A stretch of 64,000 nt of DNA from Ananas comosus (lineage: Eukaryota > Streptophyta > Magnoliopsida > Poales > Bromeliaceae). The notes beneath the pieces were generated by a model. It did no database searches. It was not told the DNA's origin and saw only the letters and a list, made by a program, of their open reading frames with translations. The stretch lies in contig NC_033635.1 in NCBI RefSeq assembly GCF_001540865.1, positions 5,882,678-5,946,677 on the forward strand. Direction: 5' to 3'. Both the position numbers and the translations under genes were made by a program. Below, one piece after another: positions 7,769 to 61,865 of this stretch (position 1 is its first letter; every line of letters starts with the position of its first letter).

Positions 7769-9932
7769 TGTAACACACTGGACCTGTGCAAATTGCGAGG
7801 TTCGAGTGTTTGATTTGGGTTCCTAGCTTTCCCACACTTGGTGGAAGGTCGTAGACTGTATTCCGACCTAAAAGTTCGAAATCTGGATTTTGGCTAAGTC
7901 CTGAGAGTTTCACTCTCGGGGACCGGTCCCTGGTGGGGAGAGACCGGTCCCCCGTTGCGTGTGATGCGGCTGAGCCCGAGGCAACCGGTCCCGTGGGGGG
8001 GAGAGACCGGTTCCCGAGAGCATGGTTTCGGGAAGGTCCTGAGGGACCGGTCCTAGGCAGGAAGAGACCGGTCCCTCTGCCCGAAATTTGCCCAGGCAAG
8101 GCTGTGCACATGATGGAAAGTTGAGGGGGCTAGCTGGATTTTGTTGCTTGAGAGGGTGTTATATGGCTTCTCCTCTCCCTCTCACCCTCATTTCTCGCCC
8201 CCACACTCTCCCCTACACTCTAGAGAGAGAAGAAGAAGGAGAAGGAGAAGAAAGAGAGCATCTTAGTGACCTTGAGCATCTTTCTCTTCCCTTTTGCTCA
8301 CCATTGGAGGCTTGGAGCTTGTGGTTGGAGCTTTGTGGAGGATCAACCTCCACCCTTCGAGCATTTTGAGCTTGGTTTGGTGCATCCTAAAGGTTAGTAG
8401 ATGGTTTCCTCCCTCTAGATCCTAATTTTGGAGCTTTCGTTGGTTGAAACCCTAGATTTGGATTTTAGGGTTTATTTTGGGGATTTTTGATTTGGAGGCT
8501 TTGGGACCCAATTGATTGGTTTAGAACCCTTGTTTAGGTGGGATTGGAAGGACTCTAACTCCTATTTGGAGATCGAGAGAGCTTTCTTCGCATTCGGTGA
8601 GTTTTTCTCCACCTTAGCTTGAGATGGTTAATGATCAACCTTATGGTTGTTCGTAAGGTTCGTTTAACTTTTGTTCCTACATCTTTAGGGTGTTAGGAGA
8701 CTAGTGGACACCTTCGTCGGAGCAAACGAAGGAGCACAAGAGTTGTGGTGGGTTTGGCTTCATGAGAACGGGGCAAAATGGCCCCTACGCTTGTTATGCT
8801 TGTCGTAACGTCTTTTTGAATGCAAATCCATGCTAGATAGGATTTATGTGAATTTTGGAACACTTAAAATACATGCCTTATGTATCATGAAAATTTCACT
8901 CTATATAGTAGAGCATTATGGGTAAACTTCATGCATGCGAGAAGTGTTCGTATTAGTGACTTGGAAACATGTCTCTTATGTTAGAAATCGCTCAAATTAT
9001 GCATTTGCAAATAATAAACTCATGTTTGGACTTAGTAGACAAAATGCCATAAAGGGGCACTTGACATAGTAAATGGTGAACTACAACGTAGAGATATAGT
9101 GATAGGCCATTGAACATCTGCTATATTCCATGTTAGAGACATGATGGCATAGAGATAGGCCATTGAGACATTTGATACACATTCCATATTGGTAGACATG
9201 AGGACTTGGTATTTGAGACGGATCTTATGCTATTTGCCATTGTGCTCATTCGCACATGCTTGTGAGGGTCGCTCCCAACAAGCCGGCACTCCGGAGATGG
9301 CCATCGCGATACATATTGGCTGTGCGGGATTGGGCACCGAAGTGCATTGCCGTGGGCTAGGCTCATTCCTAGAGTGGGGATGTTGACTACCACGGGGCCA
9401 TTAGGCTCGGCACCGGTCAAACAGCCTACGGGTGGATCTCAGGGCTAGACAGCCTTCGGGCGGGTCTCTTCAGATTTGACTTGGAGCATTTATCATGCCA
9501 GGTGGGCATTGATTATAGTAAACAATGACATCTTTACTATTTGACTTATGGATATCATACTAGCGATGTTTGGGTACATTCATACGAGAATAGCTTTTCT
9601 TACTCATGCTAAATCATGCTAAGTAGAGATATCATGTGGTAATAAATATTCATGCTTATTTACTTATCGTACTTATCACTCTTGTTTATATCCGTTTACT
9701 GACCCCTTTTTAGTTTGGGCCTAGTGGTGCATATCACTGAAGCCAGTAATTGCCCACTGGGAGTTATTATTCAATAATTCTCACGCCAACTGTTTTATGA
9801 TTTTATTTCAGAGCCTTCGGCACTGGCGGAGGCACGGGATCGCGGCAAGGGAGTCGCATAGCTAGATAGCGGAGCTTGCTGTTGCTCCTAGGTGGTCGCT
9901 CTCTTCTTTTGGTTTTTGTGTGAGAGAGAGAG
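7769..9932 (+). repeat. D-family LTR (D1), plus orientation
   Basis: Starts TGTAACACACTGG. U3 carries the ACCGGTC palindrome cluster (7916-8075), then a TATA-like TTATATGG at 8159-8166 and a CT-rich leader. The 3' half matches 36208-37491 and the reverse of 19739-21171. It stops at 9932 in a GA repeat, about 280 bp short of the expected GGGGCGTGACA end, where another LTR start abuts. Confidence 0.8.
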
Positions 9933-9951
9933 TGTCACGCCCCGGGACCCA
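9933..9951 (-). repeat. 19-bp D-type LTR terminus cut by CACTA
   Basis: TGTCACGCCCCGGGACCCA equals the terminus of the D LTR at 19739. It reads opposite to D1, so a second D LTR apparently inserted head-on here and was then truncated by the CACTA element. Confidence 0.6.
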
Positions 9952-10215
9952 CACTACAACAAAAAAGGGATATAGCGACACTTTTAAATGTCGGTATAAA
10001 TCAATAAAAGTGCTGCTGGCTAAATTACCGACACTTTTAAAAAGTGTTGCTATATGTGGCGTCGCTAGGTATATAGTGACACTTTTTAAGAGTGTCGGTA
10101 TAACTTAAAAAGAGTGCTACTAATATACCGACACTTATTTAAGCTTTTAGCAGCACATAAAAGTGATACAAAATAATATTCTAGCAACACTTTTTTTAAT
10201 TTCAGCGACACTTTA
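9952..10215 (+). repeat. CACTA left TIR and subterminal repeats
   Basis: CACTACAACAAAAAAGG terminus plus about ten copies of GACACTTTT / AAAAGTGT(C/T) in both orientations, the transposase-binding type of array expected in CACTA subterminal regions. Confidence 0.85.
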
Positions 10216-15304: not shown

Positions 15305-16521
15305 TGTTAAGGATTTTATAGGTTGGCGAATTTCGTAAAGTTGTTTGGAGTCTTGAAGAGTTGATCGCAGAAGTTTTTGAGAAAAGATTCAAATTGGAGG
15401 ACAAAGACTCATTCGGAAAGATCGACACCTAAGGTATGAAGAAAAGATCATTTGTGGTGAAGATACATAATTAGAATAAGTTCAGAAGGCTTAGATTGCT
15501 TTAAAACAACTTTTCTGAACTTTCATGTGTTCTGGGACCGGTCTCTGAGATGGAGAGACCGGTTCCCCCAAGGTCCTCACTGCGTAAACCTTGATGCAAC
15601 CGGTCCCCTGTGATGAGAGACCGGTTCCCGAACCTTGGTGGTTCTGTCGCGCAGCGAGGGACCGGTCTCAAGTTTGAGAGACCGGTTCCCGAACGTGGGG
15701 TTTTTGGTCACGCAGGGAGGGACCGGTTCCTCACTTGAGAGACCGGTCTCTCACAGACCGGTCTCCTCGACAGGACCGGTCTCTGAGGACGACACAGGTT
15801 TTTGAAATCGACTTTTTGCAATCCTAGTCTACTTCTAAGTCTTCTAAACATATAAATAAGCTATGTGGGTCATCTAAAATTAAGGCTTTGAATATTTTAC
15901 CAATTCTAAACCCTAGAAACTTATTTCTCCCCGTTTCAATGCTTAGATTTACATGATGAGTTTCTAGCAATCAACATCGGCTTGATTCTTCGTTTTTACT
16001 CGATATTTCTTACGAGAATCAAGTAGATGATTGATTAAAGGTGAACCCTCATAGCTTATGGTTTTCAAAAGTTAAATCACCACAAATCTTCAATTCTACA
16101 AGCTCCGGAAGGAGGTTCGGCGCGTGGATCTCGCGTGAAGCCGAAGATTCGGTGGACGCTTCGAGGAGTTGAGGCGTTGACGCTGCGAGGAGTTGCAGCA
16201 AGGTCGATTGGTGGATTCCTATCGATCGAGGACCGGCAAAGATCACCGTCAACGAGAAATCGGTAAATTGAGTCGTGTGTTTTTGGTCGAAATCACTTGT
16301 ACTCAAGTTTTCTTAGTGGATTTTCTTTGCGTGATCGGTCCCGTGGGTTTTTCACTCCGAATTGGAGTTTTCCCACGTTAAATTCTCGGTGTGCTATTTT
16401 AATTTCCGCTATTGTGTTTTGTTTGCATCGAGATTTTTTTTTCGAGTTTGCCGGATTTACACCTATTCACCCCCCTCTAGGTGTTACTTACCTTTTAGAT
16501 CCTCGGGTTCCATATCTTACA
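15305..16521 (+). repeat. Copia F1 3' LTR
   Basis: 1217 bp, TGTTAAGGATTTTATAGG start, ATATCTTACA end. U3 contains the ACCGGTC palindrome cluster (15535-15785), followed about 65 bp on by TATAAATAAG (15851-15860). The downstream end includes CACCCCCCTCTAGGTG, shared with all SIRE-like LTRs in this window. It abuts a gypsy fragment directly. Confidence 0.88.
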
Positions 16522-17420
16522 CGTGGTATGGCCATTACGAGTTCACGGTAATGTCGTTTGGGCTTATTAATGCCCCGGCAGCATTTATGGACTTGATGAG
16601 CCGAATCTTCAGGCCGTTGTTGGACCGGTGCGTCGTGGTGTTCATAGACGACATATTGGTCTACTCGAAGAGCGAGGAGGAGCATGAAGAGCACTTGAAA
16701 GCTGTGCTGCAAATACTCCGACAAGTAAAGCTTTATGCTAAGTTGAAGAAATATGACTTTTGGCTAAAGGAGGTCACATTCTTGGGTCATGTGGTATCGG
16801 GCGACGGAGTGTCAGTAGACCCGAAGAAAATGGAGGCGATCAAGGATTGGCCTCGCCCGACAAGCGTAGCGGAGGTCCGTAGTTTTCTCGGACTTGCGGG
16901 CTACTATAGGCGGTTCGTGGAGGGGTTTGCTAAAATAACCACTCCACTAACGCACCTTACTCACGATTGCAATTGGAGCTTTGAGGAGTTAAAGAACAAG
17001 TTGACGTCGACCCCGGTGCTTGCCTTGCCGACTCCGGGGGAGACCTTTGCAGTATACAGTGATGCCTCGTATGTTGGTCTCGAGTGTGTACTAATGCAAA
17101 ATTGGCGAGTCATTGTGTATGCTTCGCGCCAATTGAAGAGTTATGAGAAGAACTACCCGATTCACGACCTCGAGTTAGCCGCGGTGATCTTCGCGCTAAA
17201 GCTTTGGAGGCATTGTGAGATCTACACGGATCACAAGAGTCTCAAATATTTGTTCACCCAGAAAGAGTTGAATATGCGACAGCGGCGGTGGTTAGAATTG
17301 CTAAAGGACTATGATGTCACTATACTATACCACCCCGGGAAAGCAAATGTCGTGGCCAATGCTTTGAGTAGAAAATCGGCAAATAACCTAGCGACGGCAA
17401 TTACGCCTCAACCGCTATTG
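16517..17420 (+). pseudogene. Ty3/gypsy RT-RNase H fragment
   Basis: One open frame of about 300 residues, entered mid-protein. It carries the RT core ([13 protein letters not shown], then [14 protein letters not shown] with both catalytic Asp), the connection region ([15 protein letters not shown]), and RNase H ([29 protein letters not shown]), ending at ANALSRKSA. Compared with element C's copy it lacks about seven residues just before EIYTDH. It resembles Tekay/Del-type chromoviruses and element C. It is sandwiched between two Copia 3' LTRs facing away from each other, so gag, protease, the RT N-terminus and integrase are gone. The open frame visible upstream of 16517 is LTR sequence. Confidence 0.9.
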
Positions 17421-18626
17421 TGTAAGTTTTGGGGTAGCCCAGGGATCTATCTAGATTGTATCTAACACCTAGAGGGGGGTGAATAGGTGTAAAAGCCGAA
17501 AACTACAAATCTCAATGCGATAACAGTAAATGCGAAAAGATAAAAATCACACCGAGATTTACGTGGAAAACTCCAACTAGGAGTAAAAAACTATGGGACC
17601 AACACGCGATAACAATCCACTAAGAATAAAAGATTACAAGGTGATTTACCGATTCTATGGACTCAAACCTCTCTTTTATCTCCTCCGGATGTCGCCCATA
17701 CCAACGGGTTGTCCACGCCCCACGTCTGAATCCATGAACGCCACATCCCGAATCCACGAAACGTCCACACTTCAAATCCACGAAGCCTTGCTCACGCTGA
17801 TTCCACGACGCCCACTCGAATCCACGAGCACACTCCGTCCGGAGCAAGAATACCAAGACTGACGATGATTTATTGCTTAGACAAACATTAAAGAACCATA
17901 GAAGATGTTTCTAAGCAATAGCCGGATCAATTCTCCGCGAAGAACAAGAAATTAGGGTTTCAAGAATTGATCCAATAGAAACTTGTTGTTCGAGAGAAGA
18001 AAGAATGCACCGAACAAGTTTCTAGGGTTTCAAAACAATATTCTATGCCTTCATTCCTTTTTAGAAACACCCCTACATCTTATTTATAGGTTTAGAAGAC
18101 TTAGAAACAGATTAGGATTGCAAAAACCCAATTTTAAAAACTGACGTCGTCCTCAGGGACCGGTCTTCTCGAGGAGACCGGTCTTTGGGAGACCGGTCCC
18201 TCGAGTGGGAGACCGGTCCCTCATTGCGGGCCTGAAAACACAAGCTTCGGGAACCGGTCTCTCATCCCGGGGACCGGTCCCTTGTTGCGTAGCATGAGAA
18301 TAAAGCTACGGGAACCGGTCTCTCATGAGAGGGACCGGTTGCATTGCTCTACAATGCACGAGGACCTACGGGGGCTGGTCCTTCATATCAGGGACATGTT
18401 CCTGAACCTTGAAAGGCTCAGTTTTGTCCTGATTCGTATTTTAAAATCATCCTGAGTCTTCCAAACACTTTAAACATTTACAAATCATCATAAATGGTAT
18501 TTAAACTTACCGAGCATTGTATATTCATGTTTTGAGTCTTCGAGTCTTCGATTTTCATCTCTTCTTCTTCAAATATTCAAGACTCCGACTAACTTCACGA
18601 AATATGCCAACATAAAATCCGTAACA
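17421..18626 (-). repeat. Copia F2 3' LTR, inverted
   Basis: 1206 bp, reverse complement of the F1-type LTR: starts TGTAAGTTTTGGGG, ends AAAATCCGTAACA. The ACCGGTC cluster lies at 18155-18420 and the TATA box (minus strand, TATAAATAAG) at about 18080-18089. It is followed by the reverse polypurine tract ATCTCCCCCTTTGGC, so it is the 3' LTR of a minus-strand element. Confidence 0.88.
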
Positions 18627-19738: not shown

Positions 19739-21171
19739 TGTCACGCCCCGGGACCCAGCGGAAGCCCGCCCGGCGCGTGCCCAGACCCTCCATATGTCTA
19801 CAACATATAAGGCGTCTAAAAACAACAATAATAAAAGCAATAATAAAAGACATCTAGGAGTATCAGAGCATAATAAATGTCTAAATGCTACAACAAGGGA
19901 TAAGGATAAAACTGTAAATCCACTAAATGAAACATAGAGTAAGAACAATAGGAAATCCCAAATACAAGAGTTAAAAGTAGGTACATAGGTGGTCTCTATA
20001 CATGGATACAAAATCTCTCACTCTCTCTCAACTACAAAAAGAAAGAGTAAACCACCTAGGCAAAGTACCGCTCCTCGCTAGCTAGCTAAGCGATCCCCTT
20101 GCCGCGATCCCGTGCCTCCGCCGGTGCCGAAGGCTCTGAAAAGGAAACCATAAAACAGGGGCGTGAGAACTATTAAAAATAGTTCCCAGTGGGCAATTAC
20201 TGACTTCAGTGAATGCACCACAAGGCCCAAAGCTACAAAAGATGTCAGTGACTATAAAAGTAGAAAGGCGACAGGTAAGTAAAAATGTAACCTACTACGA
20301 CATGATATCTCTACTTAGCATGAATAGCAAAAGTATGAAAGCAACTATGCATGAAGTAAATGTCTCCAACTATCATGATGTTCACAGTGTGAAATAGTAA
20401 AATTCCGTTGTTTACTATTCTAATCAATGTCCAAGTAGTACACTAAGTCATCATCTGTCCACATGTCATAATGAATGCTCAAGTCGAATCTGAAGAGACC
20501 CACCCGAGGGCTGTCTATGGCCCTGAGACCCACCCGAAGGCTGTCTGGCCGGTGCCGAGCCTAATGGCCCCGTGGTAGTCAACATCCCCACCCTAGGGAT
20601 GAGCCTAGCCCACGGCAATCCACTTCGGCGCCCAATCCCGCACGGCGAGTATGTATCGCGATGGCCATCTCCGGAGTGCCGGCTTGTAGGGAGCGACCCT
20701 CACAAGCATGTGCGAATGAGCATAATGGCAAGTAGTCAAACGATCTGTCGCATGTACCAAGTCCTCATGTCTAATAACATGGAATGTATGGAATGTCCCA
20801 AAGGCCTATCTCTATGTCATCATGTCTCTAACATGGAATATATATAGCAGATGTACAATGGCCTATCATCATGTCTCTAAGTTGCATTTTATAGTTTACT
20901 AATTCCAAGTGCCTCTTTATGACACTTTTTGTTCAACGGGTCCTAAGCATGGCATTAACATGTTTATGATGCATAGTTCACTCAATTCTAACATGGAGTC
21001 ATGTTCTCAACTTGCAAAACCAAGCACTATTCCCAATGCATGCAATTTACACATATAGCTCTACTATATGGAGTACAATTTTTTTACGATACATGAGGCA
21101 TGCAAGTTAAGTGTTCTAAAATTCATATAAATCGTGTTTAGCACGAATTTGCATTCAAAAATACTTTACAA
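19739..21171 (-). repeat. D-family LTR (D2), cut by a gap
   Basis: Starts TGTCACGCCCCGGGACCC. It runs as the reverse complement of the D1 and D3 LTRs: shared blocks include GAGTATCAGAGCATAATAAA and the hairpin TGAGAACTATTAAAAATAGT (20164-20187). It is lost in the assembly gap before reaching the U3 palindromes. Confidence 0.82.
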
Positions 21172-21530: not shown

Positions 21531-21867
21531 GGTAGTATGAACAGGGGGGGAGCATGGCATGAATAGGCATATGAACTGAAGGAGGGGCATGTGATCAAAT
21601 AGTGACAAGGCGAGAGAGGTATAAGAATTTAAGGTTAATCATTTTGAATGAATTGTTTTGCCAGGAAATCAAGACTTTCAGACTCCTAATTGCGTCAAGT
21701 CAATAGAGTCTATTTTATGAGGTTTATTGATGTATTTGAATCTTCAATTAGTTTTGGATTACAGTGAGGAGTTCAAATGTTTTCGGTTGGATGACAAATT
21801 GAACTTTCTTGATTTTTATTTATTTTTGAGTTATTGTGTTTTGTCACGAAATTGTCAAGGGGGAGAT
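21531..21867 (+). mobile_element. Copia 3' internal tail left of the F3 LTR
   Basis: Aligns with 28150-28483 of F3 (AACAGGGGG, AGCATGG, GGTATAAGAATTTAAGGTT, GTCACGAAATTG) and ends with the polypurine tract AAGGGGGAGAT. The F3 '5' LTR' therefore has internal sequence on both sides, as in a tandem LTR-internal-LTR-internal-LTR array. Confidence 0.75.
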
Positions 21868-23012
21868 TGCTTAAGGATTTTGTATTTGCAAGTTTCGTTG
21901 AAGTGAGTCGGAGTCTTTGAAGGATCGAAGCGGGATTTAACGAAGATTGAAGAATCAAGATTTCGAAGAATTTGCGAATGAGTAAACTCAACAATGTGAA
22001 TCACGACGTAAGGTAATGGTTTTTTTAAAAATTCATGTTATGGTGATTCATACTTTAGTTATTGGCATTAGACATCATAACTTAAGTTTTAATGGATTTA
22101 GAAAGTGCCCTTCCGGAACGTAGCGGAACCCGAAACCGTGCTTAAAATCCAAATTGCATTGTGTACCGGTCGCAACGTGCCAGTACGTAAAGCCTCAAAT
22201 GGCATGCAAATTTACGTTCCGTCATTGTGTACCGATTTGACGGCACTTTTTCGCATACGGTACACAGTTTGTAAAATCTTTGAAAACTTTCTAATCCAGA
22301 CTCCAATTTGCTTCTAAAGTCTATAATAAGCTATTGGGGTTCTCTAACATATCGCAAGTATCACGAAAATACATGATTTGAGAAACCCTAGAGGCTGGAT
22401 TTCATCTAAAATACTATTTTCTACATAAAGGGGCCTCTTTAGGTCAATCGAATATTGAATTTTCATATCTATATGTCGATCTTGACTTCGCTCTCGCTGG
22501 CAGTTCTTTTCCTGGTTTTCATCGATATCTAAGCGAAGGAGTCACCATTAATAGTGATGCTCTTCGGCTATGACGCGTCGTGGATTCGGCCTGTGAACGA
22601 ACGAAGGCGGTTCGTGGATTCGGATCGTGGGCTCGTGGATTCGAGTGGCGTCGTGGATTCAGCGTGATTAAAGCTTTGTGGATTCGAAGTGGAGGCGTTC
22701 GTGGATTCGAACGTGAGGGCGTGGACAACCTGGAGGATTGCGCGAGATTCATAGGATGTTAAGAGAGGTTGAGTCCGTGGAATCGGTAATCACCTTGTAA
22801 TCTTTTCTCTTAGTGAATTATTTTTTCGCGTGTTGGTCCCGTGGGTTTTTCTCCAAGTTGGAGTTTTCCCACGTAAATCTCGGTGTGTTTTTTACTTTCC
22901 GTATTTACTTTTATTGCATCGAGATTTGTGGTTTTTGGCCGGTACACCTATTCACCCCCCTCTAGGTGATAGATACAATCTAGATAGATCCTTGGGCTCC
23001 TCAAAACTTTCA
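21868..23012 (+). repeat. Copia F3 5' (middle) LTR
   Basis: 1145 bp against 1139 bp for the 3' LTR. Starts TGCTTAAGG, where the partner has TGTTAAGG, and ends CTCAAAACTTTCA. Many one-base insertions relative to the partner are concentrated in the first 900 bp, suggesting unpolished long-read sequence. The last 250 bp agree well. Confidence 0.85.
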
Positions 23013-23014
23013 AT

Positions 23015-23026
23015 TGGTATCAGAGC
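23015..23026 (+). promoter_or_regulatory. F3 primer binding site
   Basis: TGGTATCAGAGC, complementary to initiator Met tRNA, two bases after the LTR. Confidence 0.92.
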
Positions 23027-23049
23027 GGGTCTAGATAAATTGTTATCTA

Positions 23050-25062
23050 ATGGCCGAAGGCGGAAATATTAATCGACCTCCGCTCCTCGACGGCACTAAT
23101 TATGCCTATTGGAAAGTTCGCATGAGAGCTTTTCTAATTGCAATCGATGAGCGGGTATGGCAATACATAGAATTTGGATGGAAACATCCCATTGAAAAAG
23201 TCGATAATGTTGAAACGCCTAAACCATGAAACAAGTGGACCAAAGATGAAAACGAGTCATCTTCGTTTAATGGCAAGGGCATAAATGCTTTATTTAATGC
23301 ATTGTCACAAACGGAGTTTACTCGCATTTCGGCGTGTGAAACCGCCAAAGAAATTTGGGACACTCTACAAATTACACATGAAGGTACTAGTTTAGTAAAA
23401 ATTCAAAAGCTCCAAATGTTGACTAATCAATTTGATTCTATTCGTATGGAGGAGCATGAATCTTTCACCGATTACTATACTAGACTTCAAGATATTATTA
23501 ACACATGTGCTAATTTGGGAGAGAAGATCCCGGATGCTAAAGTTGTTCGTAAAATTCTTCGAACTCTTCCGGAACGTTTTCGGGCTAAAGTAGCCGCGAT
23601 CGAAACGGTCAAACATCCGGACGAGATGAAAGTCGAGGAATTAATAGGTACATTACAAACTTATGAAATGACTTTTCCTACTAATCAATCTTCTTCCAAA
23701 TCTTTCTCTAAAAGCACAGGGATTGCATTAAAGTCGACGAAGGAGGAAGATGAGGATTCAAATTTCGATGAAGATGTTTCTCTTGCCGACTTCAAACATC
23801 AACTTGCGCTCCTCACGAAAAAGTTTCGCCGGAATTTCTGAAAGAGCAAATCGAATAAACCTTCATCGTCCAAGCAATCATCGTCTAAATCTTCATCGTC
23901 TACTTCTAAGGAGAAGAAGCGTGCAAAGGCTTCAAAAGAAAAGGATGAATTTGAAGGCGAGATCCAATGCTTCAAGTGCAAAGGCTACGGCCACATCGCG
24001 ACGGATTGCCCTTCAAAGAAAGTTTATAAATCGAAGGCTATGCAAGCAAAGACTTGGGATGATTCTTCTAGTGAATCATCGTCAAGTGACGAAGAAAAGA
24101 ATGATCAAATTGCGTTATTTGCTAATACTCCTTCATCGAACGTTGTGTGTTTATCCTCTATTGCTACTAACTCTAATGTTTCTTTCTCTTTGCATGAATC
24201 ATCGAGTGATAATGGCAAAAGCGGGGAGGATTCGAACGACGAGGATATAGCGGAAGCGTACAACCAACTTCTTATTGAATCAAAGAAGATGGCTAAACTA
24301 AATAAGAAGTTGAGGCGTCGTTTGTTGAATCTCGAAGAGGATAACAACAACTTGAAGACCACGAACAAAGCTCTCGAGGAGGAAAGGGAATCAATTTTGA
24401 AAAATAATTCAGACCTCCAAGAGAAGTTTAATGAAGCGGAATCAACGATCAAATCATATAAAGACAAGGTTGGATTTTTGGTGCAACAATTCGAGGAATC
24501 GCACACGTCCAACAAGTCATTGACCAATCAAGTTTGACAACTCCAATCCGACATACAAAAGTTCTCATCGGGATCAAAGAAATAAGACCATATGCTCGGG
24601 TTGGGTCAAACGGATAAGCTAGGCCTCGGATACGAAAGAGTTTTTGTTGAGAAAGGTTCTAAATCAACTTCTAAAGTCTCAACAACTTTAAATGGCAAGG
24701 TGTGTCATAAATGTGGCATCATAGGACACATCAAAAGGAATTGCCCAAACAAAGAAAAGATGAATCAAGCGGCATCATCTACAACTCGGCTTCCCCCGCG
24801 GAATCAAAAGAAAAATCAAGTGAGTCGGGTACCTCAAAAGAATCGGACTTCTAAACCGCAACGCCAAGTTCTACCTAAGCCACAACCAAACCGGATGTCT
24901 AATGCAAAACGACAAATTCAAATAATGCCTCAAGCGATGAAAACGCCAACGGTTGATCTAAAATCTAAGCAAACGGCACCAAACGTCGACAAGCCGAGAA
25001 AACCAAAGATCCGACAAGTTTGGATCCGGAAAGGTGATATCTTTCCTTGCTTCTCGTCTTAG
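23050..25062 (+). pseudogene. Copia gag of F3 (four in-frame stops)
   Basis: Single reading frame of 671 codons from ATG at 23050, eight-odd codons after the PBS zone. N-terminal LDGTNYAYWKVRMRAFL and EIWDTLQITHEG are typical of Copia gag (DUF4219 plus UBN2/retrotran_gag_2, residues about 10-230). A CX2CX4HX4C zinc knuckle starts near residue 307 (CFKCKGYGHIATDC), followed by an acidic Ser-rich linker, a coiled coil (about 400-495), and a second knuckle near residue 552 (CHKCGIIGHIKRNC) with a basic tail. Stops interrupt it at 23227 (TGA), 23839 (TGA), 24535 (TGA) and about 24583 (TAA). The frame ends where protease would start; no protease, integrase or RT follows. The length and double knuckle fit SIRE/Maximus-type gag. 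Confidence 0.92.
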
Positions 25063-26576
25063 TTGTTTTTGATTTCTTGTGTAGTGCTTTGATAGGTGCT
25101 TGTTGTATAATTTTATTCATTGCATTACATGTTTAAATGATTTTTGGTGCATTGAATTTTGTTTGTTTAAAAATCATTTTTGAGAAAGGAGATGATTGAG
25201 AATCATTATTTTGAGGAGAGAAATTTTTTTAATGTCGTGTAAACGGTATTAAACTTCACAATCATATTAAGTTAAATTCATATTAATTATCGTTTTTACT
25301 CCACTTTTTATTATTTTGACGATAATTTAATATATAATTTTTAATGCATATATTCATCAAAATTTTGGAAATCAAATTTGATCTTTTGGTGATAAATCTA
25401 TCTCGGTTGTGTGTGTTAAAAATGATAGATGGATATTCGTTAATAGACTAAAATTTGTCAAAATATTTTCAATTGTGAGATTGTCTAATTTAGGGGGAGT
25501 TTGAAATTATTAAAAAAAAAGGGGAAAAAACTCCTATGTTTAAAAGATGTGGAAAGAGTTACATCCAAAAGAAGTGTGAAAACTACCACCACATGTAAGA
25601 AAGAGCTACCACCCCGGTCGTCCGGCAAGTGTGTGAAGCTACCACATGAAGAATTAAATTGATTAACCGAAAAAGGTTGAAAAAAATAATAAATATTTTA
25701 GAATTTTCAGAGTAATAAGGTGCTAGTTTGAAAAAAATGCTCAAAGAGCCACCCCCGGTATCATATTAGTTAAATCTCTATTTTGAACGTGTTACGACAA
25801 ATTGGTGATTTTGAATTTCTAAAAATTATTTTTCATCAACTTACATCTTGATGATTTTGAATCATTAGACTATTTTTTATAATGAAATTTTGATGTTTCG
25901 ATATATTTTGAAATTTTATAATATCTTATTTTCATTATAATGATTTTTGGAGTAAAAGCCTTAATTTATATGAAATTAATTTAAATTTGATGAATTTTTA
26001 AAGAAAATTTTCGAAATCTGAGATCATGTACCAGTACACGATCCAGTACCGGTACGGGTACTGTAGCAGCGGCTTATATAACCGGATATAGGGTTTATTT
26101 TTCACTCAAATCAAAACCAAATTTCGTTTTCTCTCTCTCTAAAAATCCCTGGTGCCTTCCTCTTACAGATCTACACGATTTCCTGCAGAAATTTGTGAGT
26201 ATTTAGCATGGATTTAATCGTTTCATCGCGTTCATGTTTATTTTTCAAAAATATTCCGAGTTTAAGCTAGATCTCTGTTTTTGATCGTTTTTTATGCAAT
26301 TTTTTGCTGTAGATCAGTGCTTAAGGACATTATCTTGCTTCTAGAACACTTGAACACATCAAAACAGGTTATTTTTCGTTGATCCATGTTCTAAGCTTCA
26401 TTTTTCATGTAATTTCGGAATTTTTTGTAAAATGTCATTTTTGATGGAAATTTTTTGCATGATCTGGTTAGAAATAGCATTTGTATGCATTCTAATGTTA
26501 TTAGAAATTTTTTCGCTATTTTTACAGATTTTTTCAAAATTTTGTTCATGCAAGGTTAATTTTTTGTATAGGAACA
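25063..26576 (+). mobile_element. Conserved non-coding interval of F3
   Basis: Occupies the place of pol. 25490-25510 has a PPT-like TTTAGGGGGAG. 25550-25650 has three spaced (G)CTACCAC words and matches the reverse of 19480-19560 in F2, so it is conserved across copies though non-coding. 26030-26060 contains CAGTACCGGTACGGGTACTG, the same palindrome class as the F3 U3. The 3' part (26100-26570) is an AT-rich leader before ORF2 with TTTACAG and TTGTATAG acceptor-like ends. Confidence 0.6.
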
Positions 26577-27965: not shown

Positions 27966-28483
27966 TTTCTTCGTCGAGCTTAGTCTTTCTATTTCACTGT
28001 ATTTGCTGCTTAGGATGCTGTTTTAGTTTTGCATGCTTGTCTTTTCTTTCCGTGTTAGGCATGTAACTATGTCTTGACTACTCTTATGCTTTTTAGTATG
28101 TTTTCTCTCTATTTGCTTTCATTTTGGCAATTTTTGACAAAAAGGGGGAGAGCGTAGATGAACAGGGGGAGAGCATGGATGAACAGGCATTGAACTAAGG
28201 GGGAGATGTGATCAAGATGTGAACAAAGGGGGAGAAGGTATAAGAATTTAAGGTTAATCATTTTTGAATGAATTGTTTTGCAGGAAATTAAGACTTCAAG
28301 ACTCCTAGTTGCGTCTAAGTCATAGAGTCTATTTTAGGAGTTTTTGATGTAATTTTGAATCTCACATTGTATTTGGATTACACGCGAGGAGTTCAATGTT
28401 TTGGTGATTACAATTGAACATCGAATCTTTTATGTATTTTTGAGTTTTATGAGTTTTGTCACGAAATTGCCAAAGGGGGAGAT
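27966..28483 (+). mobile_element. F3 3' untranslated region with repeated PPT motifs
   Basis: Contains AAAGGGGGAGA-type purine tracts about 28140-28150, 28161-28168, 28197-28205 and 28228-28237, and the terminal one at 28472-28483 next to the LTR. Multiple PPT-like tracts are a described trait of SIRE-type Copia elements. Confidence 0.75.
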
Positions 28484-30374: not shown

Positions 30375-30465
30375 TCCTTCCCACCTTAAAAGAGTTTCGT
30401 CCTTGAAACGAACTCCATACTACAAAACTTATTTTGAACTTTAAATTCTAAACTCATACCTCGAT

Positions 30466-31508: not shown

Positions 31509-31519
31509 AGATATATCTT

Positions 31520-32428: not shown

Positions 32429-32608
32429 CTCATTGNATTCTTCTCATGGTCCTTTAACTGACGGGACGCATAAGCTATCACTCTCCCGCCTTGCATCAGG
32501 ACACACCCCAAACCCAGATAGGATGCATCACTATAGACCGCAAAGTCCTCGCCCTGCACCGGTAAGGCGAGTATCGGAGCCGACGTTAACCTTCTCTTCA
32601 ACTCATTG
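32268..32608. repeat. Artefactual ~170-bp duplication around a single N
   Basis: 32268-32435 and 32437-32608 are nearly the same RNase H sequence on either side of the N at 32436, with only a few differences. No Ty3/gypsy element duplicates this part of RNase H, so this is most likely an unmerged contig overlap. Confidence 0.85.
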
Positions 32609-32617
32609 AAGCTTCGG

Positions 32618-35733: not shown

Positions 35734-35740
35734 CTTTATC

Positions 35741-37491: not shown

Positions 37492-37496
37492 CGCCC

Positions 37497-39939: not shown

Positions 39940-39944
39940 GATAC

Positions 39945-44400: not shown

Positions 44401-44623
44401 TACGGGGACCGGTCCCTCCCTGACCAGGGACCGGTCGCACCAGCGACCCCAGCCCAACTTCAGCCCAATAATGCAATTTGCATGATTTGCCCTCGCGAAC
44501 TCCATTCCAATGCACTTCTTGGGTTTTGTGCATCTTAAGCTTTTCCAAAGCTTATCCAATCGACCATTCGTCGTTTTTGGACGAAGCACAACTCTCCAAT
44601 TTGGGGAAATTCAGGGCATGACA
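41500..44623 (-). repeat. Element B 3' LTR
   Basis: 3124 bp, TGTCATGCCCC...CAGGGCATGACA. In plus order it carries: hairpin (41946-41969), ~65-bp GCGGCGAA repeats (42320-42780), CTAGGTTC repeats (42840-43100), a TGCATxxT-rich zone (43150-43330), a CT/AG-rich leader (43950-44130) and the ACCGGTC cluster (44218-44440). It lacks a ~50-bp palindrome unit that the other LTR has. Confidence 0.93.
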
Positions 44624-48197: not shown

Positions 48198-51100
48198 TGT
48201 CACGCCCCACGACCAACCGCCAATTTGGACCGGGTCGCGGCGCCGACGACAGACCGCCGAACGGACTGGGTTTCCCCTGTACGCGGACAGAGTCTCCCCT
48301 GTACGTTCTAGGCATCGCAATCCCAACAATCAACGAATGTTCCAACTAGGAACGGATATCAATCCAGATTGCATAAGGAAGTATCAAATATATAAAACTA
48401 ACTGCTATTACACACATTCATTTTACATCCACATTATACATTTGCTTAACTTCCAAATACAATTACATTATTACAATTTATTACAAGTTTGCACTTTGTC
48501 TCTAAACCCGTCAAGCTAGACCACCAACTCGGGTACTGCTACCTCGGTCTCTGGGATAGGGCGCTATCTACGAAGCTACGCCCTCGCCTTGCGCCGCCGC
48601 GCCGCACACGAACAACCTGAAAACACCCCGAAACAATGTGGGGTGAGAACCAACTCCATGGTTCTCAGTGGGTACGGCTACCCAAGGGAAAAGCTCGACC
48701 GATAGGTCCGAGGAGGCACTGCAACATGTTAGTTCAACAATATACAGCAGATATATTCAATTGAAATACATGCCATGCCTCACGATATGCGAAATGGGAA
48801 TCATACAACTCTATGCAACAATTAGTAGATCATTTGATTCTACGCATTACTTGGCTACTCTTAGCTCAATTCATCAACTCTAAGGCCTCTACTACCTTAG
48901 GATCTCAACTCAGTCCACTGGCTTCTAAGGTTTCTATTACATTAACTCAAGCCTATGTCTCTAGCTCATAGGGTTTCTACTACCTCTATCAAGCTAACCA
49001 CCCGACTCGGCTTCGAGTCAATCATCTGCTGAGAGTCCGTGCACTGGCTGCTCAGCAGCCTACCGCTCTCTCTGTCTCAGCCTCCTAGCGGCAAAGTCAT
49101 CGCACACGCTAAGCACGGCTCAAGTCGCATGACTTGACCATCTGGCGGTGATCACTTTACTCTTACCCAGCGTGAGCTTGAGTCATGACACACCGTCTGG
49201 CGGCGAACGAATCACACCTCACCCAACAACGGTACATGTCCAACTCAGCCACCTGGAGGCACCCGCATCGTACTTACCCAGCATGGATTCAGTCTGCTCT
49301 GGCGGTCTGATCCTCAAATGGCTTAACCATCCGGCGGCGAAATCGTCGAACAAACGCCACGACAATGGTTCAAGCCCCGGGCGATGATCTCCATGTGATC
49401 GCCCCCAATCCTCCCTCGGTACCAAGCTCAGCGGCGAAGTCGTCGCACACGCCCTAGCCCCTACCAGGGTCATCACAAGTCATGGGATTCCGGAATCCAC
49501 TTTCCACAGGTCGAGGGTCCATAGCCAACCCTATACTGTCGACCTAGCTCATCTTAGGGGCTATACCACTATACTCATCAACCTAGGTTTAAATACTCTA
49601 GGTTCTAGGTCCATGTCACTTAACCTAGTTACAATTGCTAGGTTCTTGTCCTCTTGCCTAGATGTCCATTTCTATGTTTACTAGTTCGACCTAGGTTTAC
49701 TAACGCTAGGTTCGATGCCACACACCTAGATTGTTCGACTCTAGGTTCACTTGTTTAACCTATGTTCTTCAATGCTAGGTTAGATGCCACTCGATCTACC
49801 TGACAACCTAGTTGTCCAATCAACTCCGCTCACACTAGAGTTATTATCTAGTTTATATGCATATACTCCTAGCATATTCTTTAATGCCGATTATGCATTC
49901 TTACCTGTCATGCTCATTATGCTTTCTACTTAGCATTTTCATCTATGCATTGTTGTTACCATGCATTCTTTACTTAGCCTTTACTTTATGCATATTTATT
50001 AACATGCACCATTTAGTCCTGTCTACATGCATCAACATGAGATTACATTGGTAGGACATAAAGGGCGACCTAGTCGCTTCGGTAAGCACAACCCACCTTT
50101 AATTAGCTTTCCGATTGCTCGTCGACACTTGCAATCGGCCTCTCGCGGCACTCGGCACCCGTTTGGGCCCGATCTCACAGTTGCTCTCCACTAAGCGCGC
50201 CGCTTTGCCGTTTCAAGTGCTAAAGGTCTTCACCTAGCTACCACGGTGCTCAGAACCCGATTTCATGATTTATGGACATCGCCTCGGCCTTCCAGGCGGA
50301 AACGAAGCTCCAAGCGTCTGATTCTTCAATATCTTTGCAACGGCTTATCGGATTGCCGAACCGACTTCGCCAACATGTTTCGTTACCTACCAATTAGGTT
50401 AATAGAGGGTCAAATGAGATCAAACTCATCTATTTACAAAAACCCCACTTGGGTGCCCTAGAATGCCATCACTACCAAATCCACCAAATCGATCTATCAT
50501 TTGGGTACAATCCCTCTTGATAGCACGCTAGGGTTCCATTCCAACCATTTCTAGGGTTTAAAACCCATTCCCAAGAGATCTACCATGAGAGGGCTTGGAA
50601 GCTTACCTCTCCAAGAGCTCCAAGGGGAAGAAGAAGATGAAGAGGATGATGGTGACGATGATCCTCTTCTTCTCCTCCATCTTTTCCTTCTTTTCCCCTT
50701 CTCTTTTCCTTTCTTTCTTTTCCTTTCTCTCTTCTCTTCTTTTCCTTTTCCTCCGCATGATCGGAGCGAGAGAGAGAGAGAGATAGTGAGGGAGAGTGAG
50801 GGAGTGAGAGAAAGAGAGAGAGAGAGAGACCTCTCTAATAACCCCTCATATGGCCATTTTGCACATAAGTCCCTCAACTTTTCATCTCTTACACAGCCTT
50901 TACTGGGCTGTTTGCGCGCGGAGGGACCGGTCTCCCCGACCAGGGACCGGTCCCCAAGAGCTCTCCCAGGCAGCACGCGTACGGGAACCGGTCTTTCCCT
51001 GAGGGACCGGTCCCCAGGAGACTGGTCTGCCCACCAGAGACTGGTCCCCGAGAGCTCATCTCGCGGGACTTAGCCAATTTTCGGCTATTTCCGCTGGAAT

Positions 51101-51374
51101 CACCTACGGGGACCGGTCCCTCCCTGACCAGGGACCGGTCGCACCAGTGACCCCAGCCTCTACTGATGGGACCGGTCTCTCCAACCAGAGACCGGTCCCC
51201 GAGGGCAACTTCAGCCCAATAATGCAATTTGCATGATTTGCCCTCGCGAATTCCATTCCAATGCACTTCTTGGGTTTTGTGCATCTTAAGCTTTTCCAAA
51301 GCTTATCCAATCGCCCAATAGTCGATTCTGGACGAAGCGCAACTCTCCAATTTGGGGAAATTCAGGGCATGACA
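48198..51374 (-). repeat. Element B 5' LTR
   Basis: 3177 bp, TGTCACGCCCC...CAGGGCATGACA. Much of it, for example about 43150-43560 against 49850-50260, looks identical to the 3' LTR, while the first 150 bp differ at around eight sites. The hairpin (48644-48667) is a perfect 9-bp stem. The ACCGGTC cluster spans 50925-51210, one unit more than the partner, with a CATATG box about 73 bp away on the promoter side. Confidence 0.93.
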
Positions 51375-54580: not shown

Positions 54581-55352
54581 TGTAACATGCCAAACTTTTA
54601 TAGTTATGAAGTTACGGCGGATGTTAGTATGGAAAGCTATTCTTGGATTTGTTCCGGTGAAGTTCGGGAGCATCCGAGTGTTTTCGCTGCGTGTTGGACG
54701 CGGACACGGAATGCTATGTTAAACTTTGGACTAAATTCGGCAAAGTGCAGGTGAAAGGAGAATCCAAACGCGCTCGAAAATGTGTTTCAGGGGTCTCGGA
54801 ATGATTAGTGATGAATCGGAGGCCCAACGAGCGAAAACAAAGCAAATCGAAGAAAATTGGCAAAAGGCTGAAATTTGGGGCTGATGGACCTACGAGGTCC
54901 GGACCTTTAGGGCCAGGGTCCGAACCCCGAACCCAAAACCAGCCCAGGCAGGGTGGCATTCTTGTAATTATGGTGGTGGGGCTTGTATAAAAAGGGGCTT
55001 CTTCTCCTTTCTTCTTCTTCCTCAGCTCACCACACACACACACCTTGGGATAGAGAGAGAAACTCTCTTTTCTCTCTCTAGATCCCCTCTTTCCCTCTCT
55101 AGATCTCTCCTCCAAATTCACAGGGTTGGTCGAGAAGAAGCTTGGGAACGCGTTGGGAGTGACGGATTGAGTCCTCGTGCTACTGGTGGAGCGGCGTGCT
55201 TTCGACTCGAGGTTCACATTTTGGTAAGTGTTTAGGATTTGGTTAAATCCTTCATGAATGGTATTTTAGAGATCCGTAGGCAATTATATGCATGTTCCTC
55301 CTTGTGATTATGGGTTATTTGGAGGATATGTGGATGCTAGGGCTAGGATAGG
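54581..55352 (+). repeat. E-family solo LTR E4, 5' segment
   Basis: Plus-oriented E LTR starting TGTAACATGCC. U3 has GGTCCGGACC and GGGTCCGAACCCCGAACCC (54895-54940), then a clear TATA box TATAAAAAGG (54986-54995) and a CT-rich leader. Flanked by CATTT (54576-54580) and TATTT (60428-60432), a one-mismatch target duplication. Interrupted by solo LTR H. Confidence 0.85.
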
Positions 55353-58300
55353 TGTCACGCCCCGCGACCACCCGCCTATTTGGCCGGGTCGCGGCGCCGC
55401 CGACAGACTGCCGAATGGACAGAGTTTTTCCTGTACGTCCTAGGCGTCGCAATCAATACAAAACGTAGGTCCAACCAGGAACTGATATCCATCAAGATTG
55501 CATAAGGAAGTATCAATAACATAAACCTAACTGCTATTACAAGCATTCATTTCATACAATTTATACATCACATTTTTCTTTTACATTGGACTTCCAAATA
55601 CAATCTAAGTTATTACATCACTTTACAAGTTTGATATATTTTGTTTCATCGTCCTCTAGTCCTCTAAGCTAGACTGTCTCAGGGTACTGCTACCTCAGTC
55701 TCTGGGTAGGGCGCTATTTACGGAGCTACGCCCTTGCCTCGCGCCGCTACGCCGCTCACATGCAAACCTGAAACATCCCAAAACAACGTGGGATGAGAAC
55801 CAACTCCATGGTTCCGAGTGGATACGGCCACCCAAGGAAAAAGCTCGACCAATAGGTCTGAGAAGGCACTGCAACATGTTAGTTCAACAATATACAACAA
55901 ATATATATTCAAATTAAAATACATGCCATGCCTCACAATATGCGATATGAAAATCATGCAACTATGGTAGATCACTTGATTCTACATTTTACTTGGCTAA
56001 TCTTATCACATATCATTCACTCTAAGGTGTCTATTACCTTAGGATCTCACTCAAGTCCACTGACTTCTAAGGTCTCTATTACCTCAGCTCTAGCCTCTAT
56101 CATTAGCTTATAAGGGTTCCACTACCCTATCGAAGCTATCCACCCGACTCGGCCTCGAGTCAATCATCCGCGGATATTCCGCGCATTGGCTGCTCAACAG
56201 CCTACCGCTCTCTGTAACTTAGCCTCTTAGCGGTGAAATCGTGGCACACGCTGAACCCGGTTCAAGTCCCTTGACATAGCCATTTTGGCGGCGAACATGT
56301 TGCACTTACCCAGCGAGGACTCAAGTCATGACCTATCCATCTCGCGGCGAACTAATCGCACCTCACCCAACAATGGTTTCAGTCACGACTCAGCCACCTG
56401 GCGGCACCCGTATCGTACTTACCGAGCAATGGTTTCAGTCAATCCCAGCGGTCTGATCCACATTCGGCTTAACCATTCGGCGGCGAAATCGTCGCACACG
56501 CCACGACAACGGTTCAAGCCTCGGGCGGTGATCTCCATGTGATCGCCCCCAATCCTCTCTTGGTATCAACCTCAGCGGTGAAATCGTCGCACACGCCCTA
56601 GCCTTGATACCAGGGTCCTCACAAGTCCTGGGATTCCAGAATCCACTTTCACAGGTAGAGGGTCCATAACCAACCCTATGCTGTCGACCTAGAACATCCT
56701 GGTGGTTGCTACCACTATGCTCAACAACCTAGGTTCAACATTACTCTTGGTTCACTACACATCATGACCTAGGTTTTTAACACTCTAGGTCCTATGTCTC
56801 TGTCACATAACCTAGGTACAATCGCTAGGTTCTATATCATCTCTACCTAGAGGTCAACTTCTAGGTTCCCTTGTTCGACCTATATTTACTAACACTAGGT
56901 TCGATGCCACACACCTAGACTTATTCGACTCTAGGTTCACTTGTTCAACCTATGTTCTTTAACACTAGGTTAGGTGCCACTCGATCTACCTGACATCCTA
57001 GTTGTCCAATCGAGTACCATAAAGTTCTCATGCCAATCAATTCTACTCATTCTAGAGTTATCATCTAGTTCACATGCATATCTACCTAGCATATTCTCAC
57101 AATGCTTATCATGCATTCTTTAATTTATCTAGCATTATCTACATATCATGCTCATCATGCAACCTTGCAAACCTATGTCATTTCATCAACATGCATCAAT
57201 ATGAAATTACATTACTTAGACATACAGGCGACCTAGTCGCTTCGGTAAGCACAACCCTCTCCGATTGCTTGTCGACACTTGCAATCGGCCTCCCGCGGCA
57301 CTCGGCACCCGACTTGGCCCGATCTTGCAGTTGCGCCTCAACCGCGCGTCGCTTTGCGATTCCGGGTATTAAAGGTCTTCGGTTATGCGCCACGGTGCTC
57401 GGGATCCGCTCTCGCAATTTATGGGCACCACCTCGGCCCCCCAGGCGGAAACGAAGCCGAAAGCCCTTATCTAGGCAATATCTTCTTGTAGGTTGGTCGG
57501 ATCGTCGAACCGACTTCGCCAACGCATTTCGTTACCTATCAATTAGGTTTACAGAAGGTCAAATGAGATCAAACTCTCATATCTTACAAAACCCCACTTT
57601 GGGTGCCTTAGATGCTACTATAGCGAAATCTACCAAATTGATCTATGAAATGGAAGAAATCTATCTAGATAGCATGCTAGGGTTCCAAATAAACCAATTT
57701 TAGAGATCAAAAATCCATCTCTAAAGATCTACTATGAGAGAGTTTAGAAGCTTACCTCTCCAAGGAGCTCCAATGGTGAGGAGAGGAAGAGAAGAAGATG
57801 GAGATGATCTCCTCCAAGCTCTACTCCTTCTCCTTCTTCTCCTTCCCTTCTCTTTCTCTTCTTCTTCTCTTTTCTCTCTTCTTTCCCTTTTTTCTCTTCT
57901 TCCACGATCAGAGAGAGAGAGGGAGCAGTGAGGGAGTGAGGGAATGAGAGAGAGAGAGAGGGACCCCTCTCATAACCCCTCTCATGGTCATTTTGCACAT
58001 AAACCCCTCAACTTTCCATCCCTTACACTGCCCAGAATGGGCAAAACCCGCGCAGAGGGACTGGTCTCTCCCTACCGGGGACCGGTCCCAGAGGACCTTC
58101 CCCCAATCCACGCGCTCGGGAACCAGTCTCTCCCTACCAGGGGACCAGTTGCCTTGCGCTGCCACAACCCTCAGCCTCGGGGCAACCGGTCCCTTCCTCC
58201 TGGGACCGATCCTCGAGAGCAACTCTGCTCAGACCACGTTTGGGAACTGGTCCCTCCCACCAGGGACCGGTCCCCGAGAGTAGAATCTGCCAAGTGCAGT

Positions 58301-60427: not shown

Positions 60428-60432
60428 TATTT

Positions 60433-61865
60433 CCACCTAGATTTACTCGACTCTAGGTTCAATGCTCAACCTATGTTCAATGACACTAGGTTCCATGCCA
60501 CTCATGTTCTTGTTTTCCTAGTTGTCCACACCTAGGAATTATACTTGACATGCCACTCGTGATTAACCTATGTTCAATGACACTAGGTTCCATGCCACTC
60601 ATGGTATTTTTTATCCTAGTTGTCCAGACCTAGGATCCATAATTTACATGCCACAATTGTCGAGTTCTCTATTCATCCTAGAGTTCATCGACCCATGTTT
60701 ACTATCCACATCTAGGCATTCATATATATACCCTATATGTCCACATGCCTATGTTCTTATCATCCAATGGTAGTCAATACATAGCATCTATCTCATCCAT
60801 TCATATGTGCAATTAACTACCATTACATGCATCAATGACAAACCGCACTTCACTTTGACATGGAAGTGATCTAATCACTTCGGTGAAGCACAACCCACCT
60901 AGCAATGCTTTCCGATTGCTTGTCGACACTTACAATCGGGCTCACGCGGCACTCGTCGCCTAGTTCGGCTCGAACTCGCAATCGACCACCGAATGCTCAC
61001 TGATCTCCAACCTAGAGTTGTCTGGGGCTCTCCTCAATCCTTCAATTATGGAATTAGGAGATCAATTAGGTTCAAAACCCTAAAATTCCAAAACCCCCAT
61101 TTCCAAACCTTAGCTTCATATCCTCCAAAGATCCCAAGAACTCATGGAGAAACATGCTTAGAATAGTCTAGGGATTACTAGAACACCATTCATAAAGGAT
61201 TTACTCAAAACCCTAAACTCTTACCCAATTGCGAACCACGAGTCGAAGACGCGCCGAACTACCAAGCGCTCGAGGACTCGATCCACTACTCCCTACGCGT
61301 TCCCAAGGTCGCTCTCAGCCAACACCTCAAATTTGGGAGAGAGATCTAGAGAAGGAAAGGAGCAAACTAAAGAGAGAGAGATGAGAGTTTCTCTCTCTAC
61401 AATATGTGTAGGTGTGTGTGTAATGGCTGAGGGAGAAGGAAGGAAAGGGAGAAGGTCCCTTCATATAAAGCCCCACCTTCTCAAATTACCAAAATGCCCT
61501 CATGCTGGGCAACTTTCACGTGCGGGGTTCGGACCTTGTCTCTAGGGTCCGGACCCCGTAGGTCCAACAGCCCCAAAATTTCAGCATTTTTCGAAACTCT
61601 TCGTTTTCACTCCTTGAGCCTCTAAGCCATTTCCAACCACTCCAGGACCCCCAAAACACATTTTTTAGCGCGTTTAAACCATCCTCTCACTAGTACTTTG
61701 CCGGATTTAGGCCAAAGTCCAATATAGCTTTTCGAGTTCCGGTTTCGTGCCTAACTCGTGCCGAAAACACTCGAATGCTCCCGAACTTCACCGGAACTAT
61801 CTTACTAGCCTCTCAAGCTAGTTCCCACCGAAAATTTCATAGTTATAGAAGTTCGGTATATTACA
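60433..61865 (-). repeat. Element A 5' LTR, right segment
   Basis: Continues the CTAGGTT repeats, then a CT-rich leader, a TATATGA box (61461-61470, minus), the TCCGGA palindromes (61520-61565) and the end GTTCGGTATATTACA. With 53244-54580 it makes a 2.77-kb LTR. Its outer flank is CTCGC (61866-61870); no matching left flank was found. Confidence 0.87.

Follow-up and report, generated by a model that had tools for sequence, protein, structure and literature searches.

Palindrome arrays of the Sirevirus kind in copia- and gypsy-type retrotransposon LTRs of Ananas comosus, and their likely role as promoter-proximal enhancers

Introduction

The arrays of short palindromes considered in this work lie in the long terminal repeats (LTRs) of retrotransposons within a 64,000-nucleotide stretch of the Ananas comosus genome (assembly GCF_001540865.1, contig NC_033635.1, positions 5,882,678 to 5,946,677, forward strand; referred to as the window), and their closest described counterparts are those of the Sireviruses. 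According to the published accounts, which are cited here and below for the parts of their text that were available, 13 Sireviruses carry palindromic boxes (designated RM) in at least 8 copies, all but one with a CGG-CCG signature, and most of the LTR copies cluster in a region that begins 200-400 bp into the LTR; there the arrays form CpG islands, with a conserved TATA box downstream of them (PMC2829016). The boxes were termed Sirevirus-specific, being absent from the classic retrotransposons compared, and the available text leaves their function open and names no single binding factor (Bousios et al. 2010, PMC2829016). Sirevirus palindromes are also described as small-RNA hotspots (PMC5311732), and in maize the palindrome CACCGGACNNNGTCCGGTG, with its hairpins and small RNAs, is common to Copia and Helitron elements, while maize Ty3 elements are without an obvious structure peak (PMC10760457, citing Bousios et al. 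2016). On the gypsy side, a 5' CpG island of variable length has been described in the LTRs of monocot Del/Tekay elements (Cruz et al. 2014, PMC4029996). The latter paper cites the CpG-rich regions upstream of TATA in Sireviruses, but its available text makes no link to the Sirevirus palindromes, and its main text gives no match to palindrom- or tandem.

The arrays in the window are like those of the Sireviruses in that GC-rich palindromic boxes are followed soon after by a TATA box, and in the accompanying polypurine tract (PPT) octamer AGGGGGAG, AT/TG junction and primer-binding site (PBS) TATCAGAGC. However, their word, which is found in gypsy LTRs too, centres on CCGG (ACCGGT) and not on the order CGG...CCG that has been published for the single box. 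These gypsy LTRs are long and have a CpG-rich island of variable length in their 5' part, as do those of Del/Tekay elements. The likeness to maize CACCGGACNNNGTCCGGTG lies in the occurrence of one word across transposon classes in one genome, but unlike in maize it is gypsy LTRs that carry arrays here. We interpret the arrays as being of the Sirevirus kind, with the same word in Sirevirus-type copia elements and in gypsy elements likely of the Del/Tekay type, and as likely promoter-proximal enhancers to which a host factor binds as a dimer, a reading to which we assign a probability of roughly 0.6. It is based on the position of the arrays, their word, the pairing of palindromes at 18-22 bp, the conservation of the palindromes in most comparisons and the changes of word that affect both halves. 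While copia arrays are already known from the Sireviruses, the gypsy arrays and the changes of word look new. In the open-licence literature, which omits many journals, a word common to Sirevirus and gypsy LTRs is not reported among the matches listed, and palindrome words that differ in both halves between relatives, at corresponding positions, were not found. Among the matches listed there for 9- to 12-mers of the palindromes none appears by its title to concern LTRs, and no paper was found in it for the two 6-mers together with plant transcription factors or DAP-seq. The paired motif also gave no match in the viral contigs that were scanned.

Distribution and layout of the palindrome arrays

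The window is a nest of plant-type LTR retrotransposons, in which the hexamer ACCGGT occurs 68 times, whereas about 10 occurrences are expected from first-order Markov sequences (two sets of 50, with means of 9.9 and 10.4 and maxima of 17 and 18). Inside nine arrays, all in LTR U3 regions, are found 59 of the 68; of the other nine, one lies in the left F3 LTR, within its worn array, and eight are scattered at least 170 bp apart. In copia-type LTRs the arrays are at 15534-15783 (F1, forward strand), 18156-18402 (F2, reverse strand) and, with palindromes of the GTACCGGTAC type, 28760-28888 (right F3 LTR, forward strand). In gypsy-type LTRs they are at 7919-8075 (D1, forward strand) and, on the reverse strand, at 29911-30202 and 39477-39767 (left and right copies of C), 44219-44438 and 50923-51199 (left and right B LTRs) and 58057-58274 (H). 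When up to 3 mismatches to GGGACCGGTCCC are allowed, there are 10 sites each in F1, F2 and the two C arrays, 6 in D1, 8 in H, 8 in B left and 9 in B right, while exact ACCGGT cores number 10 in F1, 8 in F2, 5 in F3 right, 6 in D1, 5 and 6 in C, 8 and 8 in B, and 3 in H. Three further LTRs (E1-E3) carry one TCCGGA-type palindrome pair each. Among 53 sites of F1, F2, D1, H, B right and C right, which were chosen at 9/12 matches to the word so that the selection itself favours agreement at positions 4 and 9, A is invariant at position 4 and T is found at position 9 in all but one; the exact core is present in 41, and 9 of the 12 others show a single C-to-T or G-to-A change.

The palindrome clusters in LTRs that an earlier note on this DNA had reported are thereby confirmed, as are the TCCGGA pairs of E and the GTACCGGTAC word of F3, both of which are located where it had placed them. 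However, its description of the carriers as unrelated retrotransposon families over-counted the independent families. When the window is compared with itself, B, C, D1 and H can be aligned either directly or via each other, and the same is true of F1, F2 and F3. D1 matches H (in an inverted alignment) and H matches B, at 74% in either case, and the C copies match each other at 95% and B at 68-70%; the two LTRs of F3 are 86% alike, F1 and F2 are 71-80% like F3 in parts, and F1 and F2 are 70-75% like each other. E1-E3 are mutually 70-74% alike and have the opposite LTR end in common with B (~70%). The carriers are thus two to three lineages, viz. copia F1/F2/F3, gypsy B/C/D1/H and gypsy E.

The basic unit of the arrays consists of two RRRACCGGTYYY palindromes 18-22 bp apart and often recurs every ~62 bp. 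In the orientation of the element, the successive spacings are 21,41,21,41,20,41,20,15,18 in F1; 20,40,20,41,20,41,20,15,18 in F2; 22,22,53,21 in F3; 20,41,20,41,22,41,21 in H; 21,41,22,40,21 in D1; 21,41,21,72,19,15,19,51,20 in C right and 20,37,22,72,34,19,41,20 in B right. For 25 of these spacings (F1, H and C right) R is 0.74 at 10.5 bp, in keeping with a 20/41 bp lattice, but the nominal p of 1e-6 is overstated because tandem duplication of the units copies the spacings, and p values of this kind are not to be trusted. Where the start of the LTR is known, i.e. in 12 LTRs (all but D1), it is separated from the first palindrome by ~172-341 bp, and in 12 of the 13 LTRs a TATA-like box follows 53-84 bp past the end of the last palindrome. 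The distances are 67 bp in F1 and in F2, 53 and 58 bp in F3, 70 bp in both B LTRs (CATATG), 71 bp in both C LTRs (CTATATG), 84 bp in D1 (TTATATG), and 59, 58 and 57 bp in E1, E2 and E3, respectively. The TATA-like box that the earlier note had placed about 45-90 bp further on is accordingly present, in B in the weak form CATATG, in every LTR except H, to which we return below.

Conservation of the palindromes and changes of their words

The conservation of the palindromes was examined by a one-sided test, in which one LTR supplies the sites and its relative is scored for identity at them, against the identity under shifted masks. In 10 of 12 directed comparisons the palindromes do better than these masks (5% or fewer of the shifts reach the observed identity), and because they are better conserved than their surroundings in these comparisons, they are likely protein-binding sites. 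This conservation is seen although CpG positions change fastest. Outside the array, 27 of 290 CG positions differ between the B LTRs versus 43 of 2423 ordinary positions, and among LTR-pair differences generally 4-19% of CHG positions and 0-3% of other positions are affected. Within the arrays, 9 of 46 CG positions differ between the B LTRs (2/18 in palindromes) and 7 of 54 between the C LTRs (4/21 in palindromes), the rest of the C LTR piece showing 5 of 23, so that compared with the rest of the LTR the array CpGs have changed faster in B but slower in C. CpG observed/expected (o/e) is lower in the array than in the remainder of the LTR in 6 of the 7 LTRs compared. The arrays thus share the CpG decay of the LTRs in which they lie, and there is no sign of methylation escape. 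The idea of a methylation-protected island is therefore unsupported, and the methylation-sensitive switch proposed in the earlier note gains no specific support from CpG changes that run in opposite directions in B and C. Its other proposal, of a promoter-proximal enhancer, holds to the extent that the position, shared word and conservation all speak for an array that is probably regulatory. The arrays are real and, in our view, likely functional.

The words of the palindromes differ among relatives. In a MAFFT alignment, E aligns with D1, H, B and C on either side of the last pair, and it is within this pair that the E boxes TCCGGA and TCCGAA replace ACCGGT. The pair consists of GGGTCCGGACCC and AGGTCCGAACCC, 20 bp apart, in both E1 (6514-6545, reverse strand, with TATAAA 59 bp on) and E3 (61525-61556, reverse strand, with TTTATATG 57 bp on), and of AGGTCCGGACCT and GGGTCCGAACCC, 21 bp apart, in E2 (54895-54927, forward strand, with TATAAAAAG 58 bp on). 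The first E box is altered in both half-sites relative to ACCGGT. Similarly, GTACCGGTAC is found in F3 at the very place of the array where F1 and F2 carry GGGACCGGTCCC. Changes of word that affect both halves suit a reader that would itself be symmetrical and dimeric.

A minisatellite of ~41-bp units containing GGGGTCCGAAGAAATCCCC is also present at 1446-1778, outside any recognised LTR.

Proposed mechanism and its significance

In the mechanism that we propose, a dimeric host protein would bind each palindrome, and neighbouring palindromes, lying about two helical turns apart, would be bound together on one face of the DNA, with binding raising the transcription of the element. The RNA of the array may in addition fold into hairpins that could feed small-RNA silencing, in which case the array would be both the switch of the element and a handle for the host. 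Several observations weigh against this interpretation. Past the last palindrome of the H LTR a TATA-like box was looked for and none was found, and H is worn; the palindrome formed by the second E box (RGGTCCGAACCC) is imperfect; the spacings of 15 and 37 bp fall off the helical lattice; and two of the directed comparisons described above fail (D1/H, b to a, 0.176; D1/B right, b to a, 0.427). Further, the symmetry of the outer three bases within sites is below that obtained by random pairing of halves (0.610 versus 0.664, p 0.01), and since the outer bases are less symmetrical than random, the dyad rests on the inner bases.

A wider proposal, which we put forward tentatively and would not bet on at even odds, is that a promoter module has crossed the divide between copia and gypsy, i.e., that the superfamilies trade a cassette of palindromes for a host factor and that individual lineages then re-tune its word on both halves. 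Such re-tuning, from ACCGGT to TCCGGA or to new flanks, may track shifts of the host factor or of host silencing. The presence of an exact word in two superfamilies, together with altered words in their relatives, amounts to a natural variant set for finding the binding factor, and with it one can ask if the word goes with the host, with the lineage of the element or with a module that is shared. LEAFY, whose half-sites resemble GGACC/GGTCC, was considered as the binding factor and dropped. The LEAFY site has a central spacer, which is absent from the window palindromes, and tracheophyte LEAFY is reported to be of type I. LEAFY sites 1 bp apart are reported to favour binding as a tetramer. The sites of TCP, LBD and ARF factors were considered as well.

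Origin of the shared word and folding of the arrays

The word that copia and gypsy LTRs share needs a common cause, which is either an old transfer of a U3 array between the superfamilies or convergence on one host factor; the earlier note had rightly named these two origins, but the tests made here do not separate them. If a U3 array was passed between a gypsy and a Sirevirus LTR (e.g. by template switching, or through nested insertion plus conversion), after which selection held the sites while the spacers diverged, an account with close to an even chance of being correct, then it would explain why copia and gypsy have the same 12-mer and the same pair layout, and why F1, F2, B right, C and D1 all open their third site with the rare GCRACC (in H, GCAACT opens the fifth). 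F1 and C also have an 18-nt identity, CTTGATGCAACCGGTCCC, and in 6 of 8 comparisons between copia and gypsy arrays the whole first and second units match best when in register (ranks of 1/6, 1/12, 1/12 and 3/12 for F1 and 1/6, 1/12, 3/12 and 1/12 for F2, the register for H being picked by hand). When the spacers were shuffled with the sites kept, 5 of 12 forward copia-gypsy comparisons gave p<=0.05, with values resembling those of D1-C right (0.010) and D1-B right (0.025), two gypsy pairs that are related but distant, but reverse-complement controls also gave p<=0.05 in 3 of 12, and the p values of these 24 tests are uncorrected. Also against a transfer, spacers with the sites masked are not more alike in register (ranks of 6/6, 8/12, 8/12 and 11/12 for F1 and 3/6, 6/12, 8/12 and 4/12 for F2), and in the self-comparison of the window there is no match of at least 90 bp at E 1e-8 between the F and gypsy LTRs. 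However, among the controls of the masked test close relatives rank 1 in three cases and distant gypsy pairs rank 10/12 (D1-C right), 3/12, 2/12 and 1/24, and because the related pair D1-C right ranks 10/12, the masked test has little power and its outcome is compatible with an old exchange. If, on the other hand, each superfamily tandemly duplicated a weak site for one host factor, which we consider a serious candidate at somewhat less than even odds, then the unlike spacers of the two superfamilies and the duplication of units that is evident within the F arrays are both in accord with it, as is the variation of words in relatives (F3 and E), from which words can be seen to change. Published Sirevirus words likewise differ by element, and near-identical ones recur in distant species (PMC2829016). 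Convergence nevertheless would have had to produce twice over not only these 12 bp but also the pair layout and the variant at the third site, and F3, a relative in the same genome, has another word. As F1 and F2 share their word, their pair layout and their odd third site with the gypsy arrays, and F3 has a different word, we lean slightly, on sequence grounds, towards a transfer.

It is very improbable that the arrays derive instead from a non-LTR satellite copied at random into LTRs: although a ~62 bp unit is tandemly repeated in parts of them, they lie 172-341 bp from the LTR start (wherever it is known) and 53-84 bp before the TATA-like box (in 12 of 13), and of the nine cores outside the nine arrays eight are scattered and the other is in the worn F3 array. 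A different kind of alternative, which we regard as unlikely, is that the arrays matter as RNA, in that the U3 region is at the 3' end of the element RNA, where paired palindromes would form hairpins acting as a packaging or dimerisation signal or as a template for small RNAs. The arrays do fold well, since 67 of 74 array windows of 110 nt are below -40 kcal/mol on at least one strand, versus 188 of 2978 windows elsewhere (116/264 for those with GC of at least 0.58), and in dinucleotide shuffles z is -1.9 to -7.4 for eleven GGGACCGGTCCC array pieces and -5.1 for the F3 piece, compared with -0.7 to -2.1 for four coding controls; the small-RNA hotspots at maize Sirevirus palindromes (PMC5311732, PMC10760457) point the same way. 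However, 3 of the 12 array pieces (two of H and one of C) are hardly beyond the coding controls, none of the four 110-nt windows of F3 reaches -40 even though the entire F3 array folds well, and the bases flanking pair partners show no covariation (0.686 versus 0.692 by shuffling). Further, a hairpin requires inverted repeats, but neither boxes that are themselves palindromic nor a spacing of about two turns of DNA. We regard the hairpins mainly as a by-product of palindromy, possibly exploited by host silencing, and binding of the arrays by a dimeric host factor remains the interpretation that we prefer.

Identity of the elements carrying the arrays

F1-F3 pass most of the Sirevirus sequence tests that were made and are best regarded as Sirevirus-type copia elements. 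The F1 LTR (15305-16529, forward strand, right end approximate) starts with TGTTAAGG right after the PPT AGGGGGAGAT; the F2 LTR (17420-18626, reverse strand, left end approximate) is inverted relative to it; and F3 has a left LTR at 21868-23012 with a decayed array and a right LTR at 28484-29622, both on the forward strand. The PBS TATCAGAGC is found at 23018, five bases past the end of the left F3 LTR, and the gag of F3 matches PF14223 (copia gag) at 1.1e-26. For its pol, no open reading frame (ORF) of at least 150 aa was seen. F1 and F2 have no such internal region and are assigned with F3 by LTR similarity only. The PPT octamer followed by AT/TG is present as AGGGGGAGATTG at 15295 (forward), 18625 (reverse), 21858 (forward) and 28474 (forward), and several PPT copies precede the 3' LTR (28143, 28164, 28198, 28227 and 28474; 14868 and 15295; 19010, 18939 and 18629). 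The conserved TATA box cTATAA/TAT/AAg is represented by TATAAATAAG at 15851, 18079 (to 18088) and 28941; the leading c is absent in F1 but present in F2 and in F3 right, where the box reads CTATAAATAAG from 28940. Against the Sirevirus pattern of at least 8 boxes starting 200-400 bp into the LTR, F1 and F2 have 10 boxes each, starting at 229 and 224 bp, and the right F3 array starts at 276 bp with only 5 exact cores. The core of the box in the window is CCGG, and CGGTC...GACCG spans neighbouring boxes rather than lying within one box. By simple composition, with no island caller, the F1 array (252 bp) has GC 0.61 and o/e 0.82 and the F2 array (248 bp) GC 0.59 and o/e 0.79, and the remainders of these LTRs, with o/e of 1.31 and 1.06, are above their arrays.

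Some further features of the copia region may be described here. The inverted F1 and F2 LTRs (15305-18626) flank a fragment of a gypsy reverse transcriptase (RT)-RNaseH (16525-17387) with 68-73% DNA identity to the pol of C. In the region 21532-29622, the linker and PPT before the left F3 LTR resemble those before the right one, as in an LTR-internal-LTR tandem left by recombination. Inside F3, an ORF of the 'putative plant transposon protein' family (PF20167) is found at 26871-27965, roughly at the place of the envelope-like gene of Sireviruses. Lastly, the left LTR piece of C starts at 29623, where the right F3 LTR ends, which suggests that F3 inserted into, or recombined with, the C LTR.

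For the gypsy elements C, B, D1 and H a Del/Tekay-like identity is likely. C encodes gag, protease, RT, RNaseH and integrase as separate ORFs (30466-35221, reverse strand), and in its pol RT-RNaseH is followed by integrase, which is the gypsy order. Among the 120 relatives of its RT listed of 7992, those with a named organism are from plants, except for two bacterial records that look like contamination. Tekay elements carry a chromodomain; at 30466-30840 C has an SH3 of the Tf2-1 type, its chromodomain match of 17.7 bits being below the cut-off of 25.1. The combination of long LTRs (1.1-4.4 kb) and a 5' CpG-rich island that is characteristic of Del/Tekay is seen in B, whose 3' LTR of 3.1 kb (41500-44623) is 95.3% like its 5' LTR (48198-51374), both on the reverse strand, and whose arrays, 175-185 bp from the LTR start, have GC 0.65-0.66 and o/e 0.81 and 0.65. 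In H the array o/e is 0.53, and the D1 array spans only 157 bp. Del groups I and II are without a 5' CpG island, and the U3 att site is conserved within genomes but not between them, its commonest form in maize and sorghum being TGTAACACCC (PMC4029996). At this site B starts with TGTCATGCCC, in agreement at 3 of the 4 most-conserved positions, and C with TGTTAGGAAG, in agreement at 1 of 4. Because the match is only partial, and the site is not conserved between genomes, the label given to these elements is limited to Del/Tekay-like.

C also shows two internal repeats. In its RT-RNaseH region there is a 172-bp tandem duplication (97.7%) at 32264-32608, with an N at 32436. In its 5' LTR region (35740-37957) a 472-bp sequence is directly repeated at 96%, and most of the sequence between the repeat copies recurs at 8805-9928 and 20015-21169.

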